From Fusarium oxysporum f. sp. lycopersici 4287 (taxonomy: Eukaryota; Ascomycota; Sordariomycetes; Hypocreales; Nectriaceae): a stretch of 64,000 nucleotides of DNA. How positions within the stretch are numbered: position 1 is the stretch's first letter; each line of letters starts with the position of its first letter. The position numbers and the translations under genes were made by a program. The stretch is from contig NC_030993.1 of the NCBI RefSeq assembly GCF_000149955.1, positions 2,561,544 to 2,625,543 on the forward strand, written 5' to 3'. The notes below the pieces were generated by a model, which was given only the letters and a program-made list of their open reading frames with translations, made no database searches and had not been told where the DNA came from. This document shows positions 2,329-32,295 of the stretch, one piece after another.

Positions 2329-5300
2329 CTAATAATCAGAATCATAGTTGTTGCCCCAGCCTCCTCCACTGTATTGTCCACTGGTAGCCTGCTGATCCTG
2401 TTCATCGCTGCTATAGCCATTATTTATGTCTTGATCACTCTCAACCTCTTGGTCACTGTCGTAATTACCAGATCTGTGCCCAACTTGTTGCCCTTCATCT
2501 TCAGAATCGTGTTGCTGAGTTGCTTGTTGTTGATGCTGCCCACGATGGTAACCCTGCTGCTGGTACTGTTGTTGATAGGGCTCTTCTTCAGACTCGCTTT
2601 GTTCAGGCGCTTGATTTTGCTGATGCCCACCATAGTAGTCCTGCTGCTGTTGTTGCTGCTGGGTCTGGAAATTCTGTGGCTCATCCTCTTCCGATTCAAT
2701 TTGATCAGCGACTTGATTGTGTTGATTGTAGCAACCTTGCTGTTGATACTGTTGGTGAAAAGCTTGTGGTTCGTCCTCTTCTGACTCGCTTTGCTGAGCT
2801 ACCTGTTGCTGATATTGACCATTGAAATAACCTTGTTGCTGATACTGAGATTGGAAACTTGGCTGGGCATCTTCCTCAGACTCAGGTTCTTCAGGTATGG
2901 GTTGTTGGTATTGTTCATTGAAGTACCCTTGTTGTTGATACTGCTGGTTGGCGTAACTCTGGTGCTGAAATCCCATAGACTGAACCGAATCGTCGAGGTC
3001 ATCCTCGGATTCATTGTTAACAGACTCTTTCTCGTCAGATTCGGAGACTTCTCCAGCACTAGCTTGGCCTGGGTCTGTGTTGAGGTCACTATCCGACTCA
3101 GCTTGCAAGTCGCGAGCACCAACATCCTCTGCTTCTGAAGCTTCACTATCTGTAAAATCGGCGGACATGTATGGGCTATCCAGATCAATTTCATCAGAGT
3201 CCGAGTCTTCATGAATCGATTCTGCGTCTGACTCTCCCCAATCCGAGATCTCATCATCGGATGAAGCTTGCCCTCCAGAAACCTCGGAGTCTGAAAGCTC
3301 ATACTCTTCATCGGACAAAAAGCCATCAGAGCCACTGTCGCTGATAGAGTTGGCTTCGTCTTCAGACTCGGAAAACTCTTCAGAATGATTTGAAAACTCC
3401 ACATGTGTTTCCAGTTCCCGATCAGAGTCATATGTAGATTGCTGGCTCATACCTGCATCCATGTGGATGTAGCTGCTATCATCGGTGATGCTTGGATTAG
3501 AGTAATTTTCACGAATCTCGGAAGACAGGAAATAACCACCACTAGCTCCAGCCAAGACGCCAACGCCGGCAGCTGCAGCCATCTTGCCACTGGACATACT
3601 ACTCGTACCCGTCTGTTGTGTGTTTGGGTCGTAGCTGTTTGTAAATTCTCTGGTTGACGTAAAAGTTGAGGTTTGCGTCTGTTCGCCGTTTTGTCCACGG
3701 AAGAAGGTTTCAGTATAATGAGGTACTGGAGATATCGTGGAATTCTTGTCGATGTACTGAGGGGGTTTCTGGCCAGAACTCCCCCGTACTGGGATGCTCG
3801 TAGGAGACTTGACACCTCCGGGGGTTGATCCAGTATGTGATGGGATGGGCTTTCTCTGATCGGGCGTTGCCTTTTGAGGCTGAGTAGAGGTAGCAGAAGG
3901 CTTTGCAGGGGCTGCGACAGAAGTCTTCGGGACTGCAGGCTGCTTCTGTGCAGATGTACCGCCTTGGACTGAAGGCTTTGTTGGTTGACTCTGAACTTTT
4001 GAAGTAGGTACTTGAGGTTTCTGTGAAGGTAAACCTCCCTGACCCTGAGACTTTCCTGATGGAGTCTGCGAAGTTCCTGAGGGACCCTGCACCTTTTGTG
4101 CTTGGGGCTCTGCTTTAACATTTTGTGCCTGAGGCTTGGCTGTTTGGGGTTGTACTGCTTCAGTCGGTGTTTGAGACTTGGATGGTACTGCTGCTGGTTT
4201 GGCAATTTGAGCCTGAGGCTGCACATGAGGTTTGGCAACTTGAGGTTGTGTTGCTCCGGGAGGAGCTTGAGCCTTGGGTGGTACAGGGGCTGTGTTTCCA
4301 CTCGGCGGATGAGCCTGAGCCTGTCCTTGGAGCTTGGACATCTGGGGCTGTACTACCCCAGGAGCCGCTTGAGGTTTCCTTGGAGGCATACCACCTTGAG
4401 CTGGAGGCTTTCCTGGTAGAGCTTGTGACTTACTCGTGGGAGTCTGTGCTGGGCCGGCAGGGATATGCGGCTTGCTCGGCCAGGACTGTGTCGTACCAAC
4501 TTGTGTCTGGATTGGTACCGGAGGAGACTTTGCTCCTGCTGGAGCTTGCGGTCGTTGCCACGGAAGAAACGAAGATTGTTGAGTGGGCTTCCCAGCCGCT
4601 GCTTGCACAGCAGGCTTTCCTCCAACAGGTTTGCGTATTACCTGAGGCATAGGAGGTTTGGCTGCAGGTACTGGATTTGCAGGCTTCTGATAATGTGCAT
4701 TAATCTGTTGCTGTGACATATTCGGCTTTTGGGACGTGGCTCCAAACGCTTGATATGCTTGTGCTGGTGTATTCTGGCTAGCTGGAGAGGCAGAGGCAGA
4801 ACCGCTGATTCCAGGCTGCCCCCAAGAGTTAAGTGAGGGTACCGAATACCTCTTCTCAAACTGGCTCGAAGGCACTGGGGCTGTGGGTGAAGAAGCCTTT
4901 TGGGCTTGGACGGATGAAAATGGTTGGAACGTTTGGAAGGACTGGGCTGAAGCCGGACTTGCTCCCGGGCTTGTTTGGAGCGTACCAGGATATGGAACAT
5001 ACGCCTTCTGAGACTGTACGGTCTGAGCAGGTGCTGGAGAGCCTGATGCTAGGGAACTGTAAATATCCCAACTTCCTCTCTGTACCCTGGGCGCTTTCGC
5101 CGGAACAGAAGTAGAAGAGGGGCCACCATGATAAGGAGCTTGGGGAAGCTTTGAAGACTGTTCCTTGGCTTTGGAATCTGAAACACTTCCACTTCCACTC
5201 CCGCTGGGGATCCGAGGAGGTTGGTAACTCGTGAATGAGGAAAGTGGTCTAGATTGCTGCGTCCCTGGCTTTACTGATGCTACCATAGAGCTACTGAGGG

Positions 5301-20595: not shown

Positions 20596-21967
20596 TGATC
20601 CTAGACGTTGTTATGGTTGTTGTTGGGCGACAGCTGTTCACAACATGTACCCTGAACTGATGAACATGTTGGATTCTTTGTCAGACATGAGCTTCTTTTT
20701 CTTTTTCATCATTACCAAATGCGAGAGCGCTTGATGGATCTTTTCGTGTCTTGTTCTCCCTGTCTTTGTTCTTCTTCCATGGACTTGCCTCAGATTATCA
20801 TAGCCCTTTGATTTCCATAAAGCGCCTATAGGTCAGACAGGATGAATGGTTAGTTGTTTGACTTGTTAATGACCGTAAAATCCTCTTAGATATGATACCC
20901 TATTCCTCAATACTACTCATCATATTTTTATTATTAAGGATAAGGGCTTCTGGGCCGTGCCTTTATTCTCATGTGATGAAGGTTTAGTATAAATGATCAG
21001 TTTGTGTCACAACACGACTTGTGATCATAAGAAACACTCTTAGATAGCATCTAGTGCTCATAATGAATAGGAGATCCAGTAACTATTTGCTTATCATACC
21101 TCATTCGTATTGCCTGATAGACCTCGAAGTTTCGTTAGGTTCTGCCGTTGGACCAAATGCAGCTACCCTATGCCAAGACATCGGAGTTTGGATAAGGTGT
21201 ATTGTATTCCGGCATTGCAACCCCGGCCTCTACACCGGAAATCCATGCAGAGCCTGTCTAAAAGTGTCACAAGGACAAGCTGCATAGAGCATTTCTAGAA
21301 GGCGTACCGATAAATTGATATCATAAACATCAAATCAACTGACGAACAAAGGAACCGGCCAGACCACCCCGAGCTCGGCCCCCAGGTTTCGGTCCAACGC
21401 CGAGGAAGTATTTCCAGGGCAGAACCCAGTGGAACCAACCCCAGCTTGGCCTAAAAATCAAGCGATAAGACCCCCGCGGCTCATTTACCGACCACCTGAT
21501 TTGTTGCGGTGCATTTGACTCAGTGAAGAATTACCGTTGACTCGGTGAATTTGGGCGCGATAGGGTGCTTATCTTTCACCGAGTCACTTGGTTTCACTGA
21601 GTCAAAGCCAGCGAATCACAGGGTTTATCGCGCTTTAGTTGCCGCGCTGGCACTTTCACCGAGTCACATGAAATGTCTTCTGGAAAGGTTCAGACCCAGA
21701 TGTACCCTCATGTACCTTTTCCGGCCGGTTTGGAGAAAGGAACCGGCGACATGATCGGACCATGACGGCCGACGCCACTCATGCTCATGCCCGCCCGTAC
21801 CCTTAAAATCTTTGGATGCGGGCTGTGTTTTTTTTGATAACACTCCATACTAATACTCATAATCAGTCAATCCCCTTTCCCTCCTCCTTTCCTTTCTTTG
21901 TTTTCTTCATAATTCAGAACTGAATTGTGTTGAAGAGGGGTCTGGTCTAATAGGCAATCATCCCATC
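20596..21967. other. Long upstream region of the glycine decarboxylase gene
   Basis: No coding frame is supported. 21516-21666 holds five copies of the TGACTCRGTGA element (listed separately). The last 120 bp before the ATG at 21968 are pyrimidine-rich with a T tract at 21829-21836, typical of a strong fungal leader. Confidence 0.6.
21516..21666. promoter_or_regulatory. Five-copy TGACTCRGTGA element array upstream of glycine decarboxylase
   Basis: Copies at 21516-21526 (TGACTCAGTGA), 21538-21548 (TGACTCGGTGA), 21576-21586 (TCACCGAGTCA), 21594-21604 (TCACTGAGTCA) and 21656-21666 (TCACCGAGTCA). Both orientations occur and only the seventh base varies (G or A). They lie 300-450 bp upstream of the P-protein ATG. 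The TGACTC half is the core known for yeast Gcn4 and Bas1; the GTGA extension makes the element longer than either. Confidence 0.8.
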
Positions 21968-24900
21968 ATGATGTCTGCCACTCGTATCGGACAACGGCTC
22001 GCCCGTCAGTCTCGTCGTTCCCCCATCACCCTTCAACCACGTCTCACACAATCGATTCGTCTCAATGGCGTATCCCGGGCATTCTCAGTCACAGCCCAAG
22101 TCAGCGCCCCTCGCTTTGTCGACTCACAGAGCAGCACTAAGCTGCAGGAGCATGAGCTCTTCTCAAGGAGGCACATTGGCAGCGAGTCCAGCGAGCAGAC
22201 AGAAATGCTCAAGGTGCTGGACCCTCCCGTGAGCTCCATGGAGGAGTTTCTCGAGCAGACTATTCCCCCGCAGGTTCGGAGGAAACAGAAGGGTCTCAAC
22301 CTCGTTGAACAGTGGTATGAGGGCGGCGAGGAAGCTGCTGTTCCTGCCAATGGTCGTACTGAGCACTACATCCAGCAAGAGATGCGAAAACTTGCCAAGA
22401 ACAACAAGGTCTACGAATCTTTCATTGGTGCTGGTTACTATGGAACTCTTGTTCCTGCTGTTATCCAGCGCAATGTGCTCGAGAACCCTGCCTGGTATAC
22501 CAGCTACACCCCCTACCAAGCTGAGATCAGCCAGGGCCGTCTTCAGTCTCTCCTCAACTTCCAGACTCTCATCACAGATTTGACTGGTCTCGACATCGCC
22601 AACGCCTCTGTTCTCGATGAGGCTACCGCCGCTGCTGAGGCCATGACCATGTCTATGGCCAACGCACCCAAGGGCAAAGGCCAGAAGGTCTTTGTCGTCT
22701 CCAAGGACTGCCACCCCCAGACCATCGCCGTCCTCCAGTCCCGAGCTGAGGGATTCGGCATCAAGCTCGTCATCGGCGATGTCCTCGCCGACAACTCCAA
22801 GCTCGTTCGCGAAGCCGAAGGCGACCTCATTGGAACCCTGATTCAGTACCCCGATACCCACGGTGGTGTTCACGATTACCAAGCTCTCGCCGACATCGTC
22901 CACGAGAAGAAGGCTCTTCTCAGCGCATCCACCGATCTTCTCGCTCTTACCATGCTCAAGCCCCCTGGAGAATTTGGCGCCGACATCGCCATCGGTAACT
23001 CCCAGCGCTTCGGTGTTCCTCTCGGTTACGGTGGTCCCCATGCTGCTTTCTTCGCTACATCTGAGAAGTACAAGCGCAAGATTCCTGGTCGTCTCGTTGG
23101 TGTTTCCAAGGATCGTCTCGGCAAGCCTGCTCTTCGCCTGGCTCTCCAGACTCGTGAGCAGCACATTCATCGTGAGAAGGCCACCAGCAATATCTGCACT
23201 GCTCAGGCTCTTCTTGCCAACATGTCTGCTTTCTACGCTGTCTACCACGGTCCTAAGGGTCTTAAGACCATTGCTGAGGATATCTGGAGCAAGACCCGTC
23301 TTGCCCAGAGCTTGATCCTTGAGAAGGGCGAGTTCAAGCTTCACACTGAGGGTCTCCGCGAGGATGGTTCTGTTCTTTTCGATACTGTCACTCTCAAGGG
23401 ATCTCCTGAGGCCATTGCCAAGGTTCACAAGAACGCTGAGTCTCAGAACATTAACCTTCGCCGTGTTGCTGAGGACAAGGTTGGCTTCTCTCTTCACGAG
23501 GGTGTCACCCTTGAGAGCCTCGGTAACCTCGTTAAGGCCTTTGGCGTTTCTGAGGCCGAGTTCAAGTCTGCTCTTGCGTCTGATAAGGCTACCTTCCTCA
23601 ATGACCAAATCCCTGCTTCTCTCCAGCGAAAGACCGGCTACCTCGAGCAGCCTGTCTTCAACCAATACCACACCGAGACCGAGCTCCTTCGATACATCTA
23701 CCACCTCCAGTCCAAGGATGTCTCCCTCGTTCACTCCATGATTCCTCTTGGATCCTGCACAATGAAGCTCAACGCCACAACCGAGATGCTTCCTATTTCC
23801 GACCCTGGTATCAACAACATCCACCCCTTCGCCCCCGTTGAGCAAGCTTCTGGTTACCAAGCTCTCATCAGCTCTCTCGCCAAAAACTTGTCTGAGATCA
23901 CTGGTATGGACGCTACCACTCTTCAGCCCAACTCTGGTGCACAGGGTGAGTTTGCTGGTCTTCGCTGTATCAAGGCTTACCACGAGGCTCGTGATGGAGA
24001 TAAGCGAAAGGTCTGCCTTATCCCTGTTTCGGCTCACGGTACCAACCCTGCTTCTGCTGCCATGGCTGGTATGAAGGTTGTTACTGTCAAGTGTGACGGT
24101 AAGACTGGTAACCTGGATATCGAGGATCTGAAGGCCAAGTGTGTCAAGCACGCTGATGAGCTTGCTGCTATCATGGTTACCTATCCCTCTACTTTCGGTG
24201 TCTTCGAGCCTGAGATCAAGCAAGTCTGTGATCTTGTCCACGAGCATGGCGGTCTCGTCTACATGGACGGTGCCAACATGAACGCCCAGATCGGTCTTTG
24301 CAGCCCCGGTGACATTGGTGCTGATGTCTGCCATCTCAACCTCCACAAGACCTTCTGTATTCCCCACGGCGGCGGTGGTCCCGGTGTTGGCCCTATCGCT
24401 GTTAAGAAGCATCTTGCTCCTTACCTCCCCGGTCACCCTGAGATTGATCCTCAGCGCATTGGTGCCGAACGTGACAGCACAGCCGTTGCTCCCATCAGCG
24501 CCGCTCCCTGGGGTAGCGCCTCTATTCTCCCCATCAGCCACACCTACATCCTCATGATGGGTGGAGATGGTCTTACCAAGCAAACTGGTACCGCCCTCCT
24601 CAACGCCAACTACATCATGTCCCGTCTCCTCCCCCACTACAAGGTTGTCTACACCAACGCCAACGGCCGCTGCGCCCACGAGTTCATCCTCGACGTTCGT
24701 CCCTTCAAGGAGACCGCCGGAGTTGAAGTTGCCGACATCGCCAAGCGTCTTGCAGACTATGGCTTCCACTCTCCCACCATGAGTTTCCCCGTTTCAGGAA
24801 CCCTCATGATCGAGCCCACAGAATCCGAGTCCCGCGCTGAGCTTGACCGTTTCTGTGATGCTCTCATCCAGATCCGACAGGAGATTGCCGACGTTGAGTC

Positions 24901-25129
24901 TGGCAAGGTTCCCCGCAAGAACAACCTTCTCACAAACGCCCCCCACCCTCAAGAAGACCTTCTGTCCTCCGAGTGGGACCGCCCTTACACTCGTGAGGAG
25001 GCTGCTTATCCCCTGCCTTGGCTCCGGGAGAAGAAGATGTGGCCCTCTGTGGGACGCGTGGACGATGCTTATGGTGACACCAACCTGTTCTGCACTTGCC
25101 CCCCTGTTGAGGGATCTGAGAACTTGTAG
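21968..25129 (+). CDS. GCV2: Glycine dehydrogenase (decarboxylating), P protein, mitochondrial
   Basis: A single exon of 1053 residues, the normal fungal length. The first 45 residues are Arg/Ser-rich and nearly free of acidic residues, a mitochondrial import signal. The enzyme uses PLP to decarboxylate glycine and pass the aminomethyl group to lipoyl-H protein. The PLP lysine is Lys794 in CHLNLHKTFCIPHGGGGPG; the glycine-rich loop after it is intact. VPLGYGGPHAAFF and SHAHGT-like HGTNPASAAMAGM segments match both halves of the protein. The start is MMSATRIG at 21968; the next ATG is the second codon. Codon use is strongly biased to C/T-ending codons, suggesting high expression, which also explains the very long open antisense frame. 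The H-protein gene follows convergently. Five upstream elements are shared with its neighbours. Confidence 0.97.
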   Translation: MMSATRIGQRLARQSRRSPITLQPRLTQSIRLNGVSRAFSVTAQVSAPRFVDSQSSTKLQEHELFSRRHIGSESSEQTEMLKVLDPPVSSMEEFLEQTIPPQVRRKQKGLNLVEQWYEGGEEAAVPANGRTEHYIQQEMRKLAKNNKVYESFIGAGYYGTLVPAVIQRNVLENPAWYTSYTPYQAEISQGRLQSLLNFQTLITDLTGLDIANASVLDEATAAAEAMTMSMANAPKGKGQKVFVVSKDCHPQTIAVLQSRAEGFGIKLVIGDVLADNSKLVREAEGDLIGTLIQYPDTHGGVHDYQALADIVHEKKALLSASTDLLALTMLKPPGEFGADIAIGNSQRFGVPLGYGGPHAAFFATSEKYKRKIPGRLVGVSKDRLGKPALRLALQTREQHIHREKATSNICTAQALLANMSAFYAVYHGPKGLKTIAEDIWSKTRLAQSLILEKGEFKLHTEGLREDGSVLFDTVTLKGSPEAIAKVHKNAESQNINLRRVAEDKVGFSLHEGVTLESLGNLVKAFGVSEAEFKSALASDKATFLNDQIPASLQRKTGYLEQPVFNQYHTETELLRYIYHLQSKDVSLVHSMIPLGSCTMKLNATTEMLPISDPGINNIHPFAPVEQASGYQALISSLAKNLSEITGMDATTLQPNSGAQGEFAGLRCIKAYHEARDGDKRKVCLIPVSAHGTNPASAAMAGMKVVTVKCDGKTGNLDIEDLKAKCVKHADELAAIMVTYPSTFGVFEPEIKQVCDLVHEHGGLVYMDGANMNAQIGLCSPGDIGADVCHLNLHKTFCIPHGGGGPGVGPIAVKKHLAPYLPGHPEIDPQRIGAERDSTAVAPISAAPWGSASILPISHTYILMMGGDGLTKQTGTALLNANYIMSRLLPHYKVVYTNANGRCAHEFILDVRPFKETAGVEVADIAKRLADYGFHSPTMSFPVSGTLMIEPTESESRAELDRFCDALIQIRQEIADVESGKVPRKNNLLTNAPHPQEDLLSSEWDRPYTREEAAYPLPWLREKKMWPSVGRVDDAYGDTNLFCTCPPVEGSENL

Positions 25130-25581
25130 ACAAAAAGGAAGAAGTAATGGTTTAACGATAGATGGTGGACGGGTCATATTAAGCGATTATTTTTTTTTTT
25201 TTTTTTTTTTAGCGGGAAAAGATATATCATATTCAACCATGATGGGTCCCTGACATGCATATGGAATGGTTTTTGGGAAGCTATTCAACCAAGGCGAACT
25301 GATCTCTGTATTGGCGGAGTTTTGCGAGATATGATGAGATTAGAATAAAAGTTCTAAAACTAGAAATTTATGAGTTCAAATATTCAAGCAGTTTTCTGTT
25401 GAGAAATGAAGTGGTTTAGAGGACAATATCTCCTGTTCCAAGACTTGGCCTTTATTATGATCACACATGTACACGATCTACAAATTGTGCCTTGGGACAG
25501 ACACACCGAAAATGAATGCGAAAAATCTGATATCATTTGCTTTTAAATCACCAATTATTTAATATAACCAAAAACCATCGC
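25130..25581. other. Convergent 3' region between P- and H-protein genes
   Basis: It contains a T tract of about 20 bases (near 25191-25210) just past the P-protein stop and AT-rich 3' flanks for both genes. No coding frame. Confidence 0.6.
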
Positions 25582-26195
25582 TTAATGCTCCTCAAGGTGC
25601 TTAGCATAAGCAGCCTCGTCCATCAATGAATCAAGGGCAGAAACATCCTCAGCCTCAACCTTGATCAACCAGCCCTCGCCCTCAGGATCCTTTCCAAGAT
25701 CAGCGGGTGTGTCGACGATGGGATCGTTGACCGCCACGACAGAGCCTGATACAGGAGAGTTGATGTCAGAGGCAGACTTGACGGACTCGACGCTACCGAA
25801 AGACTCGCCCTCAGAGACATCCTCGCCCTGAGAGGGAAGCTCCACGTAGACAACGTCGCCGAGAGCTTCAGCAGCGTAGTTGGAGATGCCAATTGTGCCT
25901 GGTAATGTTAATCGATGAGCTTTAGATCAGACAAATGAACTTACAGGTCTTGCCATCGGCGGCGACGTCAACCCACTCGTGGCTCTCAGTGTATTTCCTC
26001 GCGAGGACTAAAGACTATTAGATTTGATTGAGCTTCAAAAAGGAGGCAGAACCTACGGTTCATGGAAACTGAGAAGCATCGTCGGGGAGCAATGCTGTTG
26101 ACTTTGCAGGCAAAGGCAGTCTTGGGAGCTCGAAGAGCAGTGGATCGGAGCTTAGAGGCAGAAGCCCAAGCTTGACGAGCAAAGAGACCAGACAT
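25582..26195 (-). CDS. GCV3: Glycine cleavage system H protein, mitochondrial
   Basis: Three exons, 26195-26057, 26007-25945 and 25898-25582, with 49- and 46-bp introns, give 172 residues, the usual size. The start MSGLFARQAWASASKLRSTAL is an import signal. RKYTESHEWV after the first join and TIGISNYAAEALGDVVYVELP after the second are standard H-protein sequence. Lys108 in GSVESVKSASD is the lipoyl attachment site. H protein shuttles the aminomethyl group between P, T and L proteins. It converges with the P-protein gene and lies just downstream of the SHMT gene on the same strand. A TCACTGAGTCA element lies 355 bp upstream. Confidence 0.95.
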
Positions 26196-26965
26196 TGTGA
26201 GTGAGTGAGAGAGGGAGTGAGTATGAGGAATGGATTGAGGTTGAATGAGTGAATGCGAATGTCTGTGATGATGATGATTTTAGGTGACCTACTCCCCATT
26301 TACAATCCCTAGCACTTCTCATCCCCCGTCTTCGGCGGCGCTCCGGTCAAGTACCTCGGAGTCACTATCCGGCCCCAGTTCAAGCGGTGCCTCGTAGCGT
26401 CATAACAGTTGGAGAATCAGGTCATGAGCGCTACTTCAGTGTACCCACATCTTTAAGTAGCGGTACCGCTTATCTCGCCAAAAAGCTGCCATGATGGGCG
26501 GTGTAACCTGCTTTAGCCGCTTGCGAAAGGTACTCGCTACTGGCATCTTTCACTGAGTCAAGTACCGATAACCCCAGATCCAAGAGCCCTGAAATATTTT
26601 TTTTGGGTATGCGGGGAAGACTTGGAATTCCGAGGAGTGAGATATTCGGAGTTTGACGACGGAGAATGAAGTGCAAGGCAATTTTATCATGTAATTTTAG
26701 TCAATTGGGTCAATTGCTACTGGAGTAAGTTGGCATCAAATTTGCATGAGCATTGAAGTGGCGGTTATTACACAGTCGTGGTGTTGGTCCAAACAGCTTA
26801 ACTTCCAGTGCTCTAGCCCATCATGATTACAACATGGATGATCAACACAGCTACAACACAACAAATTTGGTGAGAATCATGCAATAGACTCTTTAACTCA
26901 TGTAAATTTTGCTATGATACTATTTTCCAAACGCCAAAAACGATCTTTACTCTTCATCAAAAACA
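26196..26965. promoter_or_regulatory. H-protein upstream region with TGACTCRGTGA element
   Basis: TCACTGAGTCA sits at 26550-26560 and a degenerate relative (CTCGGAGTCAC) near 26356-26365. No gene is seen. The region also carries the 3' flank of the SHMT gene. Confidence 0.55.
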
Positions 26966-28623
26966 TCATGACTTGAGCCAGGGCTGGGGGAACCCTCCAA
27001 CCCACTCAGCGACCTCATCTCGTAGCGCCTTAATCTCCTTGACATTAGATCCATCACCCAAGAACTCCAAAAAGTTCTTTACAGTACCGGGGTTCTTAGC
27101 ACCCTTGGCCTCAGCAGCCGCGCGGGCGTCCTTATCAACCGCTAGAGTGATCTGCACACCGCGGTCCACAATATCAGCCACGCGCTTGAAGTCCTCGCCG
27201 TTAAAGCCCCGCGTTGTCATGGCGGGTGTTCCGAGACGAAGACCACCGGGCTTGAGGGCGGAGCGGTCACCGGGGACGGTGTTCTTGTTGCTGGCTACAC
27301 CGACGAGTTCGAGAACACGTTCGACGCGTGCGCCGTCGACACCCTTAGGCTTGAGGTCAACGAGGACGAGGTGGTTATCGGTACCGCCTGAGACGAGCTT
27401 GTAGCCCAGACCCTCGGAGAGTTGCTTGGCCAGAGCTTGTGAGTTCTCGAGGACCTTTTCTTGGTACTGCTTGAACTCGGGTGTCTGAGCTTGGCGAAGG
27501 GCAACAGCGAGGGCGGTGATGGTGTGGTTGTGAGGACCACCCTGGTGACCAGGGAAAACTGAAGCGTTGATAGGGCCTTCAAGATCATACATGATCTGCT
27601 TGCCCTTCTTGTCTGTGCTTCGAACGCCCTTGCGGTAGAAGATCATGGCACCACGAGGTCCACGAAGGGACTTGTGGGTGGTGGTAGTAACGATATCAGA
27701 ATCCTCAAATGGTGTTCCAATAACACCAGCAGCGACAAGACCAGAAACGTGAGCCATGTCAGACAGAAGGTAAGCACCAGCCTCGTCGGCGATAGCACGC
27801 ATGCGCTCGTAATCGATCAGGCGGGAGTAGGCAGATGTACCAGCGACGATAACCTTAGGACGGTACAGAAGAGCGTTCTCGCGAAGTTTGTCGTAGTCGA
27901 TGAGACCAGTCTCCTCGTTCAATCGGTAGGGGAAGGTCTCGTAGTACTTGGAGACCATGGAGATCTTCTTGTTGGGGATTTGGTAGCCGTGTGAGAGATG
28001 ACCTCCATGGGGAAGGTCAAGACCCATGATACGGTCGTGGGTGTTGAGGATAGCAGAGTAGGCGTAGAGGTTGGCAGGTGATCCAGAAAGGGCTGAGGCT
28101 GTTAGCATTGAACAAAGAGTTGAACGCGAAGTCGAGACTTACGCTGAACATTGACACCCCATTTCTCAGGGTCAAGACGGAAGGTCTCGAGGGCACGTCT
28201 TTGGCATAGACGCTCTGCCTCATCGATATGTTCGTTACCACCATAGTATCGCGCGCCGGGGTAGCCCTCAGAGTACTTGTTTTGCATAACACTGCCTAGG
28301 GCATCGAGAACGGATCGCGAAGTGAAGTTTTCGGAAGGGATGAGGTTGATGAAATGGTTCTGGCGCTTCTCTTCCTACGATGGTGTGAGATTGGATCAAT
28401 TGGTGTATTGGAAAGTGACTTACACGCTTGAGAATGGCGTGGATCTCAGGGTCGCCTTGCTCGAGGTTGGCACCGAGAAGCTGTAGAGTGTTAGGTATTG
28501 TTGGACATGGCTTCATTGAAGACTTACATCAGATTGAGAAGCAAATGTCCTGGTGGTAACGCGGCTGGCCAGAGATGGCTTTGTGCGAAGGCATTGCTGC
28601 CGAAGGAGCCTCAAGTTCATCAT
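26966..28623 (-). CDS. SHM1: Serine hydroxymethyltransferase, mitochondrial
   Basis: Four exons, 28623-28528, 28480-28424, 28374-28143 and 28092-26966, with introns of 47, 49 and 50 bp, give 503 residues. The enzyme interconverts serine plus THF with glycine plus methylene-THF using PLP. The N terminus ([22 protein letters not shown]) is an import signal, so this is the mitochondrial form. [32 protein letters not shown] and [17 protein letters not shown] cover the conserved N-terminal part. Lys269 in [13 protein letters not shown] is the PLP lysine. Mitochondrial SHMT works directly with glycine cleavage: methylene-THF made from one glycine converts another to serine. It shares its 5' region with a divergent Zn2Cys6 regulator. 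Confidence 0.97.
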
Positions 28624-29331
28624 GATGTGTATGATGAGGGGTATCTCTGTATGAACTGAAGAGAAAGGAAAAAGAAGATGAAATTACGATACAGTCTCAA
28701 ACAGCAAGTCTAAGCTAGAGCAGCACAAGATCTAATAAGAATGTCGCTGTCCGCCGCCTTCGGCTCATGAGTTCCAGGACCGGAGCATGAGATCAAGATG
28801 CCGGTACGTACCTCATGGTCAATGTCACCGAGTCAATCTTATCAAACGTCACTGAGTCGAGATCTAAAGCCGGGGGTGAAAGAGTCCCACATGATCCTCG
28901 GAGGTTTGGTCTTGGAGGGCTGGGAGTGAGTTACCTGACGGTACATGCGCTATCTCTGAGCCTAGAACACTTTTAGAAGCTGACTCGGTGAACGGGGATG
29001 AAGTGGCTTGGTACAGGGTAACCAATTATTCCCGTTACCTACGTTATGTAACTGAAGCGAATGGGCATTAGTCCAGAAGCATTCTCAATCCGTGGCCCTG
29101 ATTTGATTTGACTTGACTCCCCCACAACAAAAACAAACACGATCCACTCCCAAGGCCACGGACGTTGCTTTACGGTTCGTCTCGCTTATTCCGGAGCCTC
29201 CATCCGATTTGCATTGCACCTGATTGTGCCTGTGTTCACCTCTAACCGCGCTGTACTTTACCACTCAAAGCCAAGCAATCCGCTTGCTTTGTCACCGAGT
29301 CTTTCGGTGGCAAAAAAAAAGAGGGCTCAAT
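28624..29331. promoter_or_regulatory. Divergent SHMT / Zn2Cys6 promoter with shared elements
   Basis: A 708-bp head-to-head region. TCACCGAGTCA at 28825-28835, TCACTGAGTCG at 28849-28859, TGACTCGGTGA at 28981-28991 and TCACCGAGTCT at 29292-29302 match the element upstream of the P-protein gene. The last copy is 30 bp before the regulator's start codon. No gene is seen in the interval. Confidence 0.75.
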
Positions 29332-31202
29332 ATGTCACCGTCACCAACAAACCCAAACCCAAACCCCTCAATGCGCCCCGTGCCTATAATCCGCAGTAGG
29401 ACGGGCTGTTTTACCTGTAGGAAGCGCAAAAAGAAGTGCGACGAGAGGTACTACCAACCGCTCTCCAAACAGTCATCTTGACTTGACTTACGTGATGATG
29501 TAGTAAACCAATCTGCAGCGGTTGCAAACGCAACAAGCTCGACTGTGTCTGGCCTGAACCACAGCCTGCCAAGGGACCATCACGGTCTTCATTTGGTGCT
29601 GCATCTACAAGCTCACAACAGAGCGTTGCTTCGCTGAGGCAGGGTCACGATGCAGACTCGGTGAATGACCCGGTGATACCGGACCCGGTGCCGGAGGAGG
29701 ACCGAGCTGCTGAGAATCCCGATGTACCCCAGAATGGCGACAGTTCTCCGGTGCATGGGCAAGGGGACACCCACATGGTCGATGCTGAAGCTGATGTGGA
29801 TATCATCGAAGCCGTTGATGATGTTGATCAGCCATCTCCTTCACAGTCATCCAACTCATCAGACTCACCGACTGTTATCACAACATGGGATGCAGATACC
29901 GCCAATGCTCTCACTCTCGCTCTGCCGCCGTCCCCAGACACAGGACTCTCATTCAATGGAGCCATTACTATGCCAATGTCGATGCTACCTGAGCAGGGAC
30001 ATCAGTCATATGAGCTTCTCAGTTACTACCTGTCACGAACGGCCAATAGCATGGGCAACGGTTCCACGGACGTGAATCCCTTCATCGCCAAGCTTATACC
30101 ATTGGCCTTCTCAAAACCACTTGTGCTACAACTCATCCTCGCCCAGAGTGCTGCGCATCGTCAGGCATCAGCAGAGCGACATCCAAGCGATGAGATCGCT
30201 CAGAGGTATTACACCGACTCGCTGCGGATGTTTAGGAATGTCGTCGATGAGTATGTATCCGGAAATGCCGAGAACACCCTTGTCTTGACAGTCGGCAGTC
30301 TTATCATGTGTTTGACTGAGGTCCGTACCATTGATTCCATGGCACGATTGTTGACTAACATGCTGCAGGTTGCCAAAGGAGACATTCACGGCACAATATT
30401 TGACCATCTAACAGCGTCCAAGTCATTAGTGAGCACATTACTCACAGGGACGCAGAACATGGTGTACGACGACTTACCAGACTTTCTAATCGAGTACTAC
30501 ATGCATATCGCAGCCACCAGTATGATCTCGATTGATCCCCAGTATAACTCACAGTCATTACTCAGCCCCGATATTGAAGTCCGGGCCAGAAACTTGGTCG
30601 CAAGGAAGTATGTCGGCCAACTATGTGGCTGCTGGCTCGAAATCCTCATCCTTATATCCCAGATCTTTCACCTAGGACAAGTAATGTCTTCACCGACTGT
30701 CGATGGAGAGATCTCACCAAGCCCCGACAACATTGTCAATTTCGCTTTCCTTCAATCTCAAGTAATGGGCTTCTTCCCAGGTCCTTCTGTCACACCATAT
30801 ACACGTCTTGCGGGGCTGGTATGGAAACAAGCTGCCCTCCTGTATCTCTGGACAGTCCTCGGGAAACCTCATCAGCAACCTGAAGGCAGCTTCCAACGAG
30901 CATTAGTAGAATCGGCCGTCGCTGAAGCAGTTGCATTACTTGATCAATTCCCCGCTTCGGTCAGGATAAATACGAGTCTTTGCTGGCCACTCGCTGTTAT
31001 CGGGTGTAGCACGTCAGATCCTTCAGTCCAGCAGGTCTTGAGGACGCGGTTGCAAACTATGTTAGACACAATTGGGCTGGGGAATATGAGACAAACACTG
31101 GTGCTATTGGAGCATATTTGGGAGCAGCCGCCGGATCAAGTCAGTCCTTGGATGCTATGTAGGGCGATGCGTGAGCGTCAGATCTGGATATCTTTTGCAT
31201 GA
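29332..31202 (+). CDS. Zn2Cys6 transcription factor, candidate regulator of the glycine cluster
   Basis: Two exons, 29332-29447 and 29504-31202 (56-bp intron), give 604 residues. The intron splits the DNA-binding domain: exon 1 ends in GCFTCRKRKKKCDE and exon 2 continues KPICSGCKRNKLDC, together one complete six-Cys binuclear zinc cluster. The middle region with LIPLAFSKPLVLQLILAQSAAHRQ is typical of the second class of fungal-specific regulatory domain. Acidic and Ser-rich linker at about residues 90-180. The start MSPSPTNPN is chosen because it directly precedes the domain; an in-frame ATG at 29224 would add 36 residues. Divergent from SHMT and carrying the shared element 30 bp upstream and again inside its coding region (29654-29664), it is a natural candidate regulator of the block, including of itself. 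That role is inference. Confidence 0.9.
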
Positions 31203-31450: not shown

Positions 31451-32295
31451 TCAAAGAAGGAACTCCCAAATCTTCGCAGCCACAAGAAGTCCATCATGAT
31501 GCGCCCTTGCTCTCGTTATACCTTCCTCATACATCTCCTTTGAGAAGATCTGCTGGGCATATCTGGCCTCCATAATTTCCTGCATGATAAAGTCGTCAAA
31601 CTCCGGATGAGCCTGGAACGAGATGATACGCCCAGGCTTGTAGAGTCCTTGAACCTCGCACCTTGAGCTGCTGCCGAGACTGACCAGACCTTCGGGAACT
31701 TCCAGGACTGCGTCTCGGTGCATCTGATGAAGGCCCTGTTCTTTTGTTAGTGAGGCCTCATGGAAAGGATTGGTGGTACTTACGAGAGATGAAACACCCA
31801 ATAGCTTCTGGCCAGTCTCGTTGAGGTTGATTCTATCAACACAAACCTCCCAACCACCCGGGCTCACCGCAACCTTTGCACCAAGTGCTCGTCCAATGAT
31901 CTGATGGCCAAAGCAGATGCCAACAATGGGCTTCTCCGTCGTTGTATAAACCTTCTTGACAAACTCAACAAGCTTCAAAATCCAAGGGTCATCAGCGAAG
32001 GATGTGTGTTCTGCATCCTGTTAGCTTTGCAGATATAACTTGATAAAAAAAACTTACTGCTTCCGGTTAACAAGAAACCATCAACATCTTCAATGTTTGG
32101 GTACTCTTGTGCTGTGACAACATCCCATTTGCTAAGATCCAGGCTCACATCCTTGCCCTTGTCACCAAGTGCTTCATTCTTGAGACCCTTGGTAAGAAGA
32201 TCACGAAAGATATCTCCATAAGAACCGCGCTTTTCATTGACAGAAGGAAAAGGCGTATCGCACTCTAGAACAGCAATTCTATATGTTCGAATCAT
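31451..32295 (-). CDS. Class I glutamine amidotransferase-like protein
   Basis: Exons 32295-32058, 32010-31784 and 31735-31451 with introns of 47 and 48 bp give 249 residues. A full catalytic triad is present: Cys in IVGICFGHQIIGRALG, and His and Glu in FQAHPEFDD. FLLTGSKHTSFADDPWI appears only after the first intron is removed and is the usual family sequence. Stand-alone proteins of this kind resemble the GMP-synthase glutaminase domain; some are gamma-glutamyl peptidases or amidotransferase partners. The substrate here is unknown. The second intron is 48 bp without an in-frame stop, so leaving it in would just insert 16 residues. Convergent with the regulator gene. Confidence 0.9.

Follow-up and report, generated by a model that had tools for sequence, protein, structure and literature searches.

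In Fusarium oxysporum f. sp. lycopersici 4287, the genes for the P and H proteins of the glycine cleavage system and for a serine hydroxymethyltransferase (SHMT) lie side by side with a Zn2Cys6 regulator gene, and copies of an asymmetric promoter element, GACTCRGTGA followed by A or C, precede all four genes as well as the T-protein gene on another contig. The shared element indicates a common input for these five genes. We consider it probable, with some reserve, that these genes form a dedicated glycine-to-serine regulon, in which the adjacent Zn2Cys6 protein reads the element and activates P, H, SHMT, and T together.

Organization of the gene cluster

Positions given without a contig refer to the window, the whole 64-kb stretch of DNA that was analysed, and the genome searches covered 61.2 Mb in 71 contigs. 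The span 21516–31202 contains, in order, the genes for the P protein (+), the H protein (−), SHMT (−), and the Zn2Cys6 regulator (+). The P-protein (glycine decarboxylase) gene (21968–25129, +) is a single exon encoding 1053 aa, which matches the Pfam family GDC-P with an E value of 7.5e-184. The H-protein gene (25582–26195, −) consists of three exons (26195–26057, 26007–25945, and 25898–25582) encoding 172 aa, and a scan of its main exon matched GCV_H (E 5.9e-34). The SHMT gene (26966–28623, −) has four exons, the main one of which matched the Pfam SHMT family when scanned (E 2.4e-154), and its product carries an arginine-rich leader and was judged by inspection to be of the mitochondrial type. 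The regulator gene (29332–31202, +) has two introns (29448–29503 and 30321–30368) and encodes 588 aa with a Zn_clus domain (3e-08) and a Fungal_trans_2 domain (5.8e-45). The identities and adjacency of the four genes, as put forward in a preliminary description of this DNA, are borne out by these Pfam matches: three genes of one pathway stand next to each other, with a Zn2Cys6 regulator gene inside the cluster. On its far side, the regulator adjoins a class-I glutamine amidotransferase-like gene (31451–32295, −; Pfam GATase, 1.7e-14 on 31451–31978), upstream of which the TGACTCRGTGA scan of the window found no element.

The regulator and a Fusarium oxysporum f. sp. phaseoli protein share 97% identity. 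The zinc-cluster cysteines of the regulator are invariant or nearly so across 23 aligned relatives, and the only solved structures with sequence similarity to it belong to other zinc clusters (RSC30, LAC9, and PPR1, for example).

Copies and consensus of the promoter element

The exact 11-mer TGACTCRGTGA occurs eight times in the window, and all eight copies fall within 21516–28991, in agreement with the preliminary description, which had reported no full copy elsewhere; 100 shuffled versions of the window contained a mean of 0.11 copies and a maximum of 1. The claim that copies lie upstream of all four genes also holds, with five before P, one before H, and four in the divergent promoter shared by SHMT and the regulator. 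In the P promoter, TGACTCAGTGA (21516–21526) and TGACTCGGTGA (21538–21548) lie on the + strand, 452 and 430 bp before the ATG, and are followed on the − strand by TGACTCGGTGA (21576–21586), TGACTCAGTGA (21594–21604), and TGACTCGGTGA (21656–21666, 312 bp before the ATG). The lone H copy, TGACTCAGTGA (26550–26560, −), is located 355 bp before the H ATG and is weak evidence by itself, the probability of one 10-mer GACTCRGTGA in this 769-bp promoter being 0.003. The shared promoter holds two exact copies and two with a different first base: TGACTCGGTGA (28825–28835, −) and CGACTCAGTGA (28849–28859, −), 202 and 226 bp before the SHMT ATG, and TGACTCGGTGA (28981–28991, +) and AGACTCGGTGA (29292–29302, −), 351 and 40 bp before the regulator ATG. 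With these 10 promoter sites, the cluster span holds 11 copies of the 10-mer, the last being AGACTCGGTGA in exon 2 of the regulator (29654–29664, +), whose role is doubtful. A one-mismatch copy, TGACCCGGTGA, follows 12 bp past it, and both lie in the regulator coding exon (29654–29676), where they may reflect chance or an intragenic site.

To define the consensus, 13 promoter sites were collected by the 8-mer core ACTCRGTG, which imposes the GTG part and leaves the flanking bases free. In every one of the 13 sites, a G precedes this core and an A directly follows it. The next base is A in 8 sites and C in 5, the base before GACTCRGTGA is T in 9, A in 3, and C in 1, and R stands for G in 8 and for A in 5. 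The element is asymmetric, with a fixed core of GACTCRGTGA and then A or C; only 9/13 sites retain the T that opens the 11-mer, and flanks beyond the core vary between sites. The five sites with A at the R position contain no CGG triplet within the 11-mer. In these promoters, TGACTC is continued by the tail RGTGA in 9 of 12 cases, compared with 0 of 115 in a 238-kb background that is not a random sample but comprises 30 loci, 29 around lone sites (with the site cut out) and one around a long GCV_T gene. The promoter sites are thus more than the bare TGACTC or TGACTCA of a Bas1 or Gcn4/CpcA site.

Distribution of the element in the genome

Whether the element is common and randomly placed across the genome, one of the objections foreseen in the preliminary description, has a divided answer. 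As a bare 10-mer, GACTCRGTGA is at chance level, with 255 copies compared with 240 for the reversed control. The form with T first is in excess (78 compared with 38), which the cluster alone does not account for; the corresponding counts for the other first bases are 78 and 100 for A, 37 and 56 for C, and 62 and 46 for G. Clustered copies, on the other hand, are confined to glycine-cleavage genes: copies no more than 500 bp apart occur at two loci only, the cluster (11 copies) and the T-protein promoter (3 copies), and among the remaining 241 copies 0.47 pairs within 500 bp were expected and 0 were seen. The positions of all 255 10-mers rule out chance or general abundance as an explanation.

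Outside the window, TGACTCRGTGA has 70 sites, of which 50 were scanned with their flanks, and among these a second exact 10-mer within 250 bp was found only at T; one other scanned site (L020) has a one-mismatch copy nearby. Paired 8-mer cores gave 12 direct pairs genome-wide, compared with 3 in the control. Five of the 12 belong to the promoters of P, SHMT, and T, and seven lie elsewhere, together with one place elsewhere that holds an inverted pair, and none of the pairs outside these three promoters has the full 10-mer on both sides. Two pairs of elements, C15:2079894 with C15:2092532 and C71:310032 with C71:322669, have nearly equal spacings (12638 and 12637 bp), which suggests a segment duplicated between both contigs. 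The size of contig C58 (48502 bp) is that of phage lambda; this identification was dropped, as 3 kb of the contig matched no phage record, and the size is probably a coincidence.

One-carbon genes outside the cluster

The Pfam family GCV_T has two matches in the genome, at C1:2396739–2397545 and at C13:1210235 (an 873-aa frame), the former of which is the T-protein gene. Three elements at C1:2396352–2396393 lie upstream of its ATG at distances of 241, 225, and 210 bp, in a single orientation and spaced by 16 and 15 bp; the Poisson probability of at least three elements in this 663-bp promoter is 3e-9. The C13 protein resembles the long FgGCV2-type protein in the available text on Fusarium graminearum (PMC13038437), and the 8 kb surrounding its gene contain no exact 10-mer.

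Enrichment upstream of the T- and L-protein genes had been proposed together, and the T gene, on its separate contig, follows the proposal. The L-protein gene does not: the nearest GACTCRGTGA lies 172 kb from the best Pyr_redox_dim match, which was assigned as L protein by score rank only. The L protein is common to other dehydrogenase complexes. At four places (C3:2379943, C3:3767165, C6:2080888, and C70:208692), 552-aa frames match Pyr_redox_dim with equal scores; each match lies 6625 bp from a copy of AGACTCGGTGA, and together they look like a repeated segment or a large mobile element present in four copies. The other one-carbon genes expected of a Bas1 or Gcn4/CpcA set are not marked by the 10-mer either, the nearest copy being 143 kb from the SHMT gene on C4, 10.5 kb from that on C7, and 55 kb from the C1-THF synthase gene.

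Gene order in other fungi

Gene order was read from locus tags in the matches listed (the best 120 of 160 for the regulator, 120 of 8000 for P, and 120 of 3775 for H), among which nine assemblies have tags for both H and the regulator. The two tags differ by exactly 2 in seven of the nine: Fusarium sarcochroum (H/regulator, 3824/3826), Fusarium sp. NRRL 66182 (5916/5918), F. decemcellulare (6834/6832), F. zealandicum (784/786, with P at 783), F. nematophilum (9436/9438), F. phalaenopsidis (5385/5383), and Stylonectria norvegica (2867/2869, with P at 2866). The free tag between H and the regulator would correspond to SHMT. The spacing is looser in Sarocladium strictum (3615/3620, a difference of 5, with P at 3614), and the genes are unlinked in Clonostachys chloroleuca (020253/002149). 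The conservation of gene order that the preliminary description had proposed to check is therefore seen, by locus tags, in other Nectriaceae.

Contigs of equal size suggest further linkage of H with the regulator in F. austroafricanum and F. acuminatum, of P with the regulator in Dactylonectria estremocensis, and of all three genes in Xylariales sp. PMI_506. In Capronia epimyces, P and a 42% identical relative of the regulator are on different contigs, as are P and H in Acrodontium crateriforme. Relatives of the regulator with 40–55% identity (best 120 of 160) occur in Purpureocillium, Cordyceps, Metarhizium, and Trichoderma, genera for which the matches listed, some of them unnamed, include no named cluster-type P or H. 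Judging by these sequences, the regulator may be older or more widespread than the cluster.

Second H-protein and SHMT genes

A second H gene is located at C9:483648–484022, and its product is 51% identical to the cluster H protein over 135 residues. GACTCRGTGA, ACTCRGTG, and TGACTC are all absent from the 1.4 kb around it. In a tree of 109 H proteins, built without rows shorter than 145 residues (Cosmosporella among them), all 16 rows marked as linked to P or to the regulator fall into one clade of 30, with a support of 99/99 and a stem of 0.6, values to be read with a bootstrap that is not settled and a root that is arbitrary. The cluster H protein belongs to a clade separate from that of the C9 protein, which groups with the second H protein of Paramyrothecium and with those of Drechmeria and Pyricularia.

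The genome contains three SHMT genes, in the cluster, on C4, and on C7. The C4 protein starts without a leader. The C7 protein (C7:2654045–2655352) is 75% identical to the cluster SHMT over 409 residues, a resemblance by which it may be mitochondrial. The cluster looks like an extra set of copies, with T shared. Named rows near the cluster P protein (best 120 of 8000, many of them unnamed) belong mostly to genera having the cluster-type H, and the cluster P may represent a separate lineage too.

Discussion

The P, H, and T proteins, together with the L protein, convert glycine to CO2, ammonia, and methylene-THF, and SHMT combines the methylene group with a second glycine to form serine, the net products from two glycines being one serine, CO2, and ammonia. 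In the regulon that we favour, the Zn2Cys6 protein would bind GACTCRGTGA(A/C) before the P, H, SHMT, and T genes and before its own gene, and its targets would be activated jointly when glycine is to be used; induction of the cluster H and SHMT genes need not disturb the element-free H and SHMT genes elsewhere. Given its place beside H and the elements in its own promoter, the Zn2Cys6 protein is most likely the binder of the element, and it is the most economical reader because its gene is a neighbour kept in place and carries elements upstream of the ATG, at 40 and 351 bp. Autoregulation probably follows the same pattern; activation, and glycine as the signal, are guesses. Several findings weigh against this regulon: the 5 of 13 sites without CGG, a triplet typical of Zn2Cys6 sites whose lack is unusual; the regulator relatives of 40–55% identity in genera without a named cluster-type P or H among the matches listed; the unlinked H and regulator genes of Clonostachys chloroleuca; the L-protein gene without an element nearby; and the excess of the 11-mer beyond the cluster.

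The regulon could also be real and have another reader, a Bas1-like Myb or a Gcn4/CpcA-like bZIP protein, with the Zn2Cys6 gene as a target or a bystander. In yeast, Bas1 and its partners control the GCV/SHM and purine genes through TGACTC sites, and to our knowledge these GCV/SHM genes are not clustered. TGACTC, the Bas1 core, opens 9 of the 13 Fusarium sites, and the A form of the element contains TGACTCA, the Gcn4 site, but 8 sites have G where TGACTCA requires A, 4 lack the first T, and all 13 carry the GTGA tail, of which the search core imposed GTG and not the final A. The sites that lack CGG fit such a reader as well, and in Candida albicans, according to the available text of PMC5541157, Bas1 is required for basal expression of SHM2 and ADE3. 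The C1-THF synthase gene and the C4 and C7 SHMT genes, however, have no 10-mer near, and the Zn2Cys6 gene stays next to H in 7 of the 9 assemblies. Taken together, we judge a Myb or bZIP reader to be unlikely, though worth keeping in mind. The simplest alternative is that the genes are mere neighbours and the repeats a product of chance or local duplication without regulatory meaning. The chance-level count of the bare 10-mer agrees with it, but the three T-promoter copies are on another contig, the density of pairs within 500 bp excludes chance, and the copies are not a duplicated block because the flanks outside the core differ among sites; we give this explanation next to no credence.

The Zn2Cys6-controlled regulon resembles the fungal catabolic clusters with a pathway activator of this class, namely Aspergillus prn with PrnA, Neurospora qa, and Aspergillus qut, in which adjacent enzyme genes of one pathway are likewise accompanied by a zinc-cluster regulator gene and a common promoter element. 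It differs from them in that the pathway is mitochondrial glycine cleavage, an essential subunit (T) is unlinked yet bears the element, other loci of the genome encode relatives of the cluster H and SHMT, and the Zn2Cys6 protein is a candidate binder. Compared with the Bas1 control of yeast and Candida, sites containing TGACTC likewise precede one-carbon genes, whereas the Fusarium element is longer, with its GTGA tail, and the 10-mer leaves the C1-THF synthase and other SHMT genes unmarked. The bacterial gcvTHP operon with GcvA/GcvR shares dedicated control of glycine cleavage genes, but the Fusarium regulator is of an unrelated type and there is no operon. Among the open-access literature matches listed, we found no description of a fungal glycine-cleavage cluster with a regulator, of the element, or of any factor that regulates the glycine cleavage system of filamentous fungi; a motif match in a Trichoderma paper (PMC10956257), as far as its available text goes, was a primer sequence and not the element. 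The available text of PMC13038437 describes, as here, a canonical T protein and a longer protein with a GCV_T domain in F. graminearum (FgGCV1 and FgGCV2), reports that ascus formation requires the T protein, and leaves the other components and the regulatory networks for later study; it describes neither a gene cluster nor a promoter element nor a regulator for this system.

The arrangement supplies a candidate for the regulator and an element of 10 bp, and it predicts five target genes as well as clear non-targets. We further advance, tentatively and as a reading slightly more apt to fail than to hold, that the cluster represents a second glycine-to-serine system of Sordariomycetes, old and inducible. 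Its basis would be that the cluster H protein lies in a separate deep clade, that the cluster SHMT is a second mitochondrial-type copy, and that the cluster P protein may likewise be a lineage apart; the other H and SHMT genes would remain at their own loci, and the T gene would have been recruited through the shared element. H proteins have two jobs, glycine cleavage and lipoyl transfer. Lipoyl transfer and basal one-carbon supply would then fall to the other H protein, and growth on glycine to the cluster copies. If this is true, the two jobs of the H protein would be split between two genes, and each could be studied alone.
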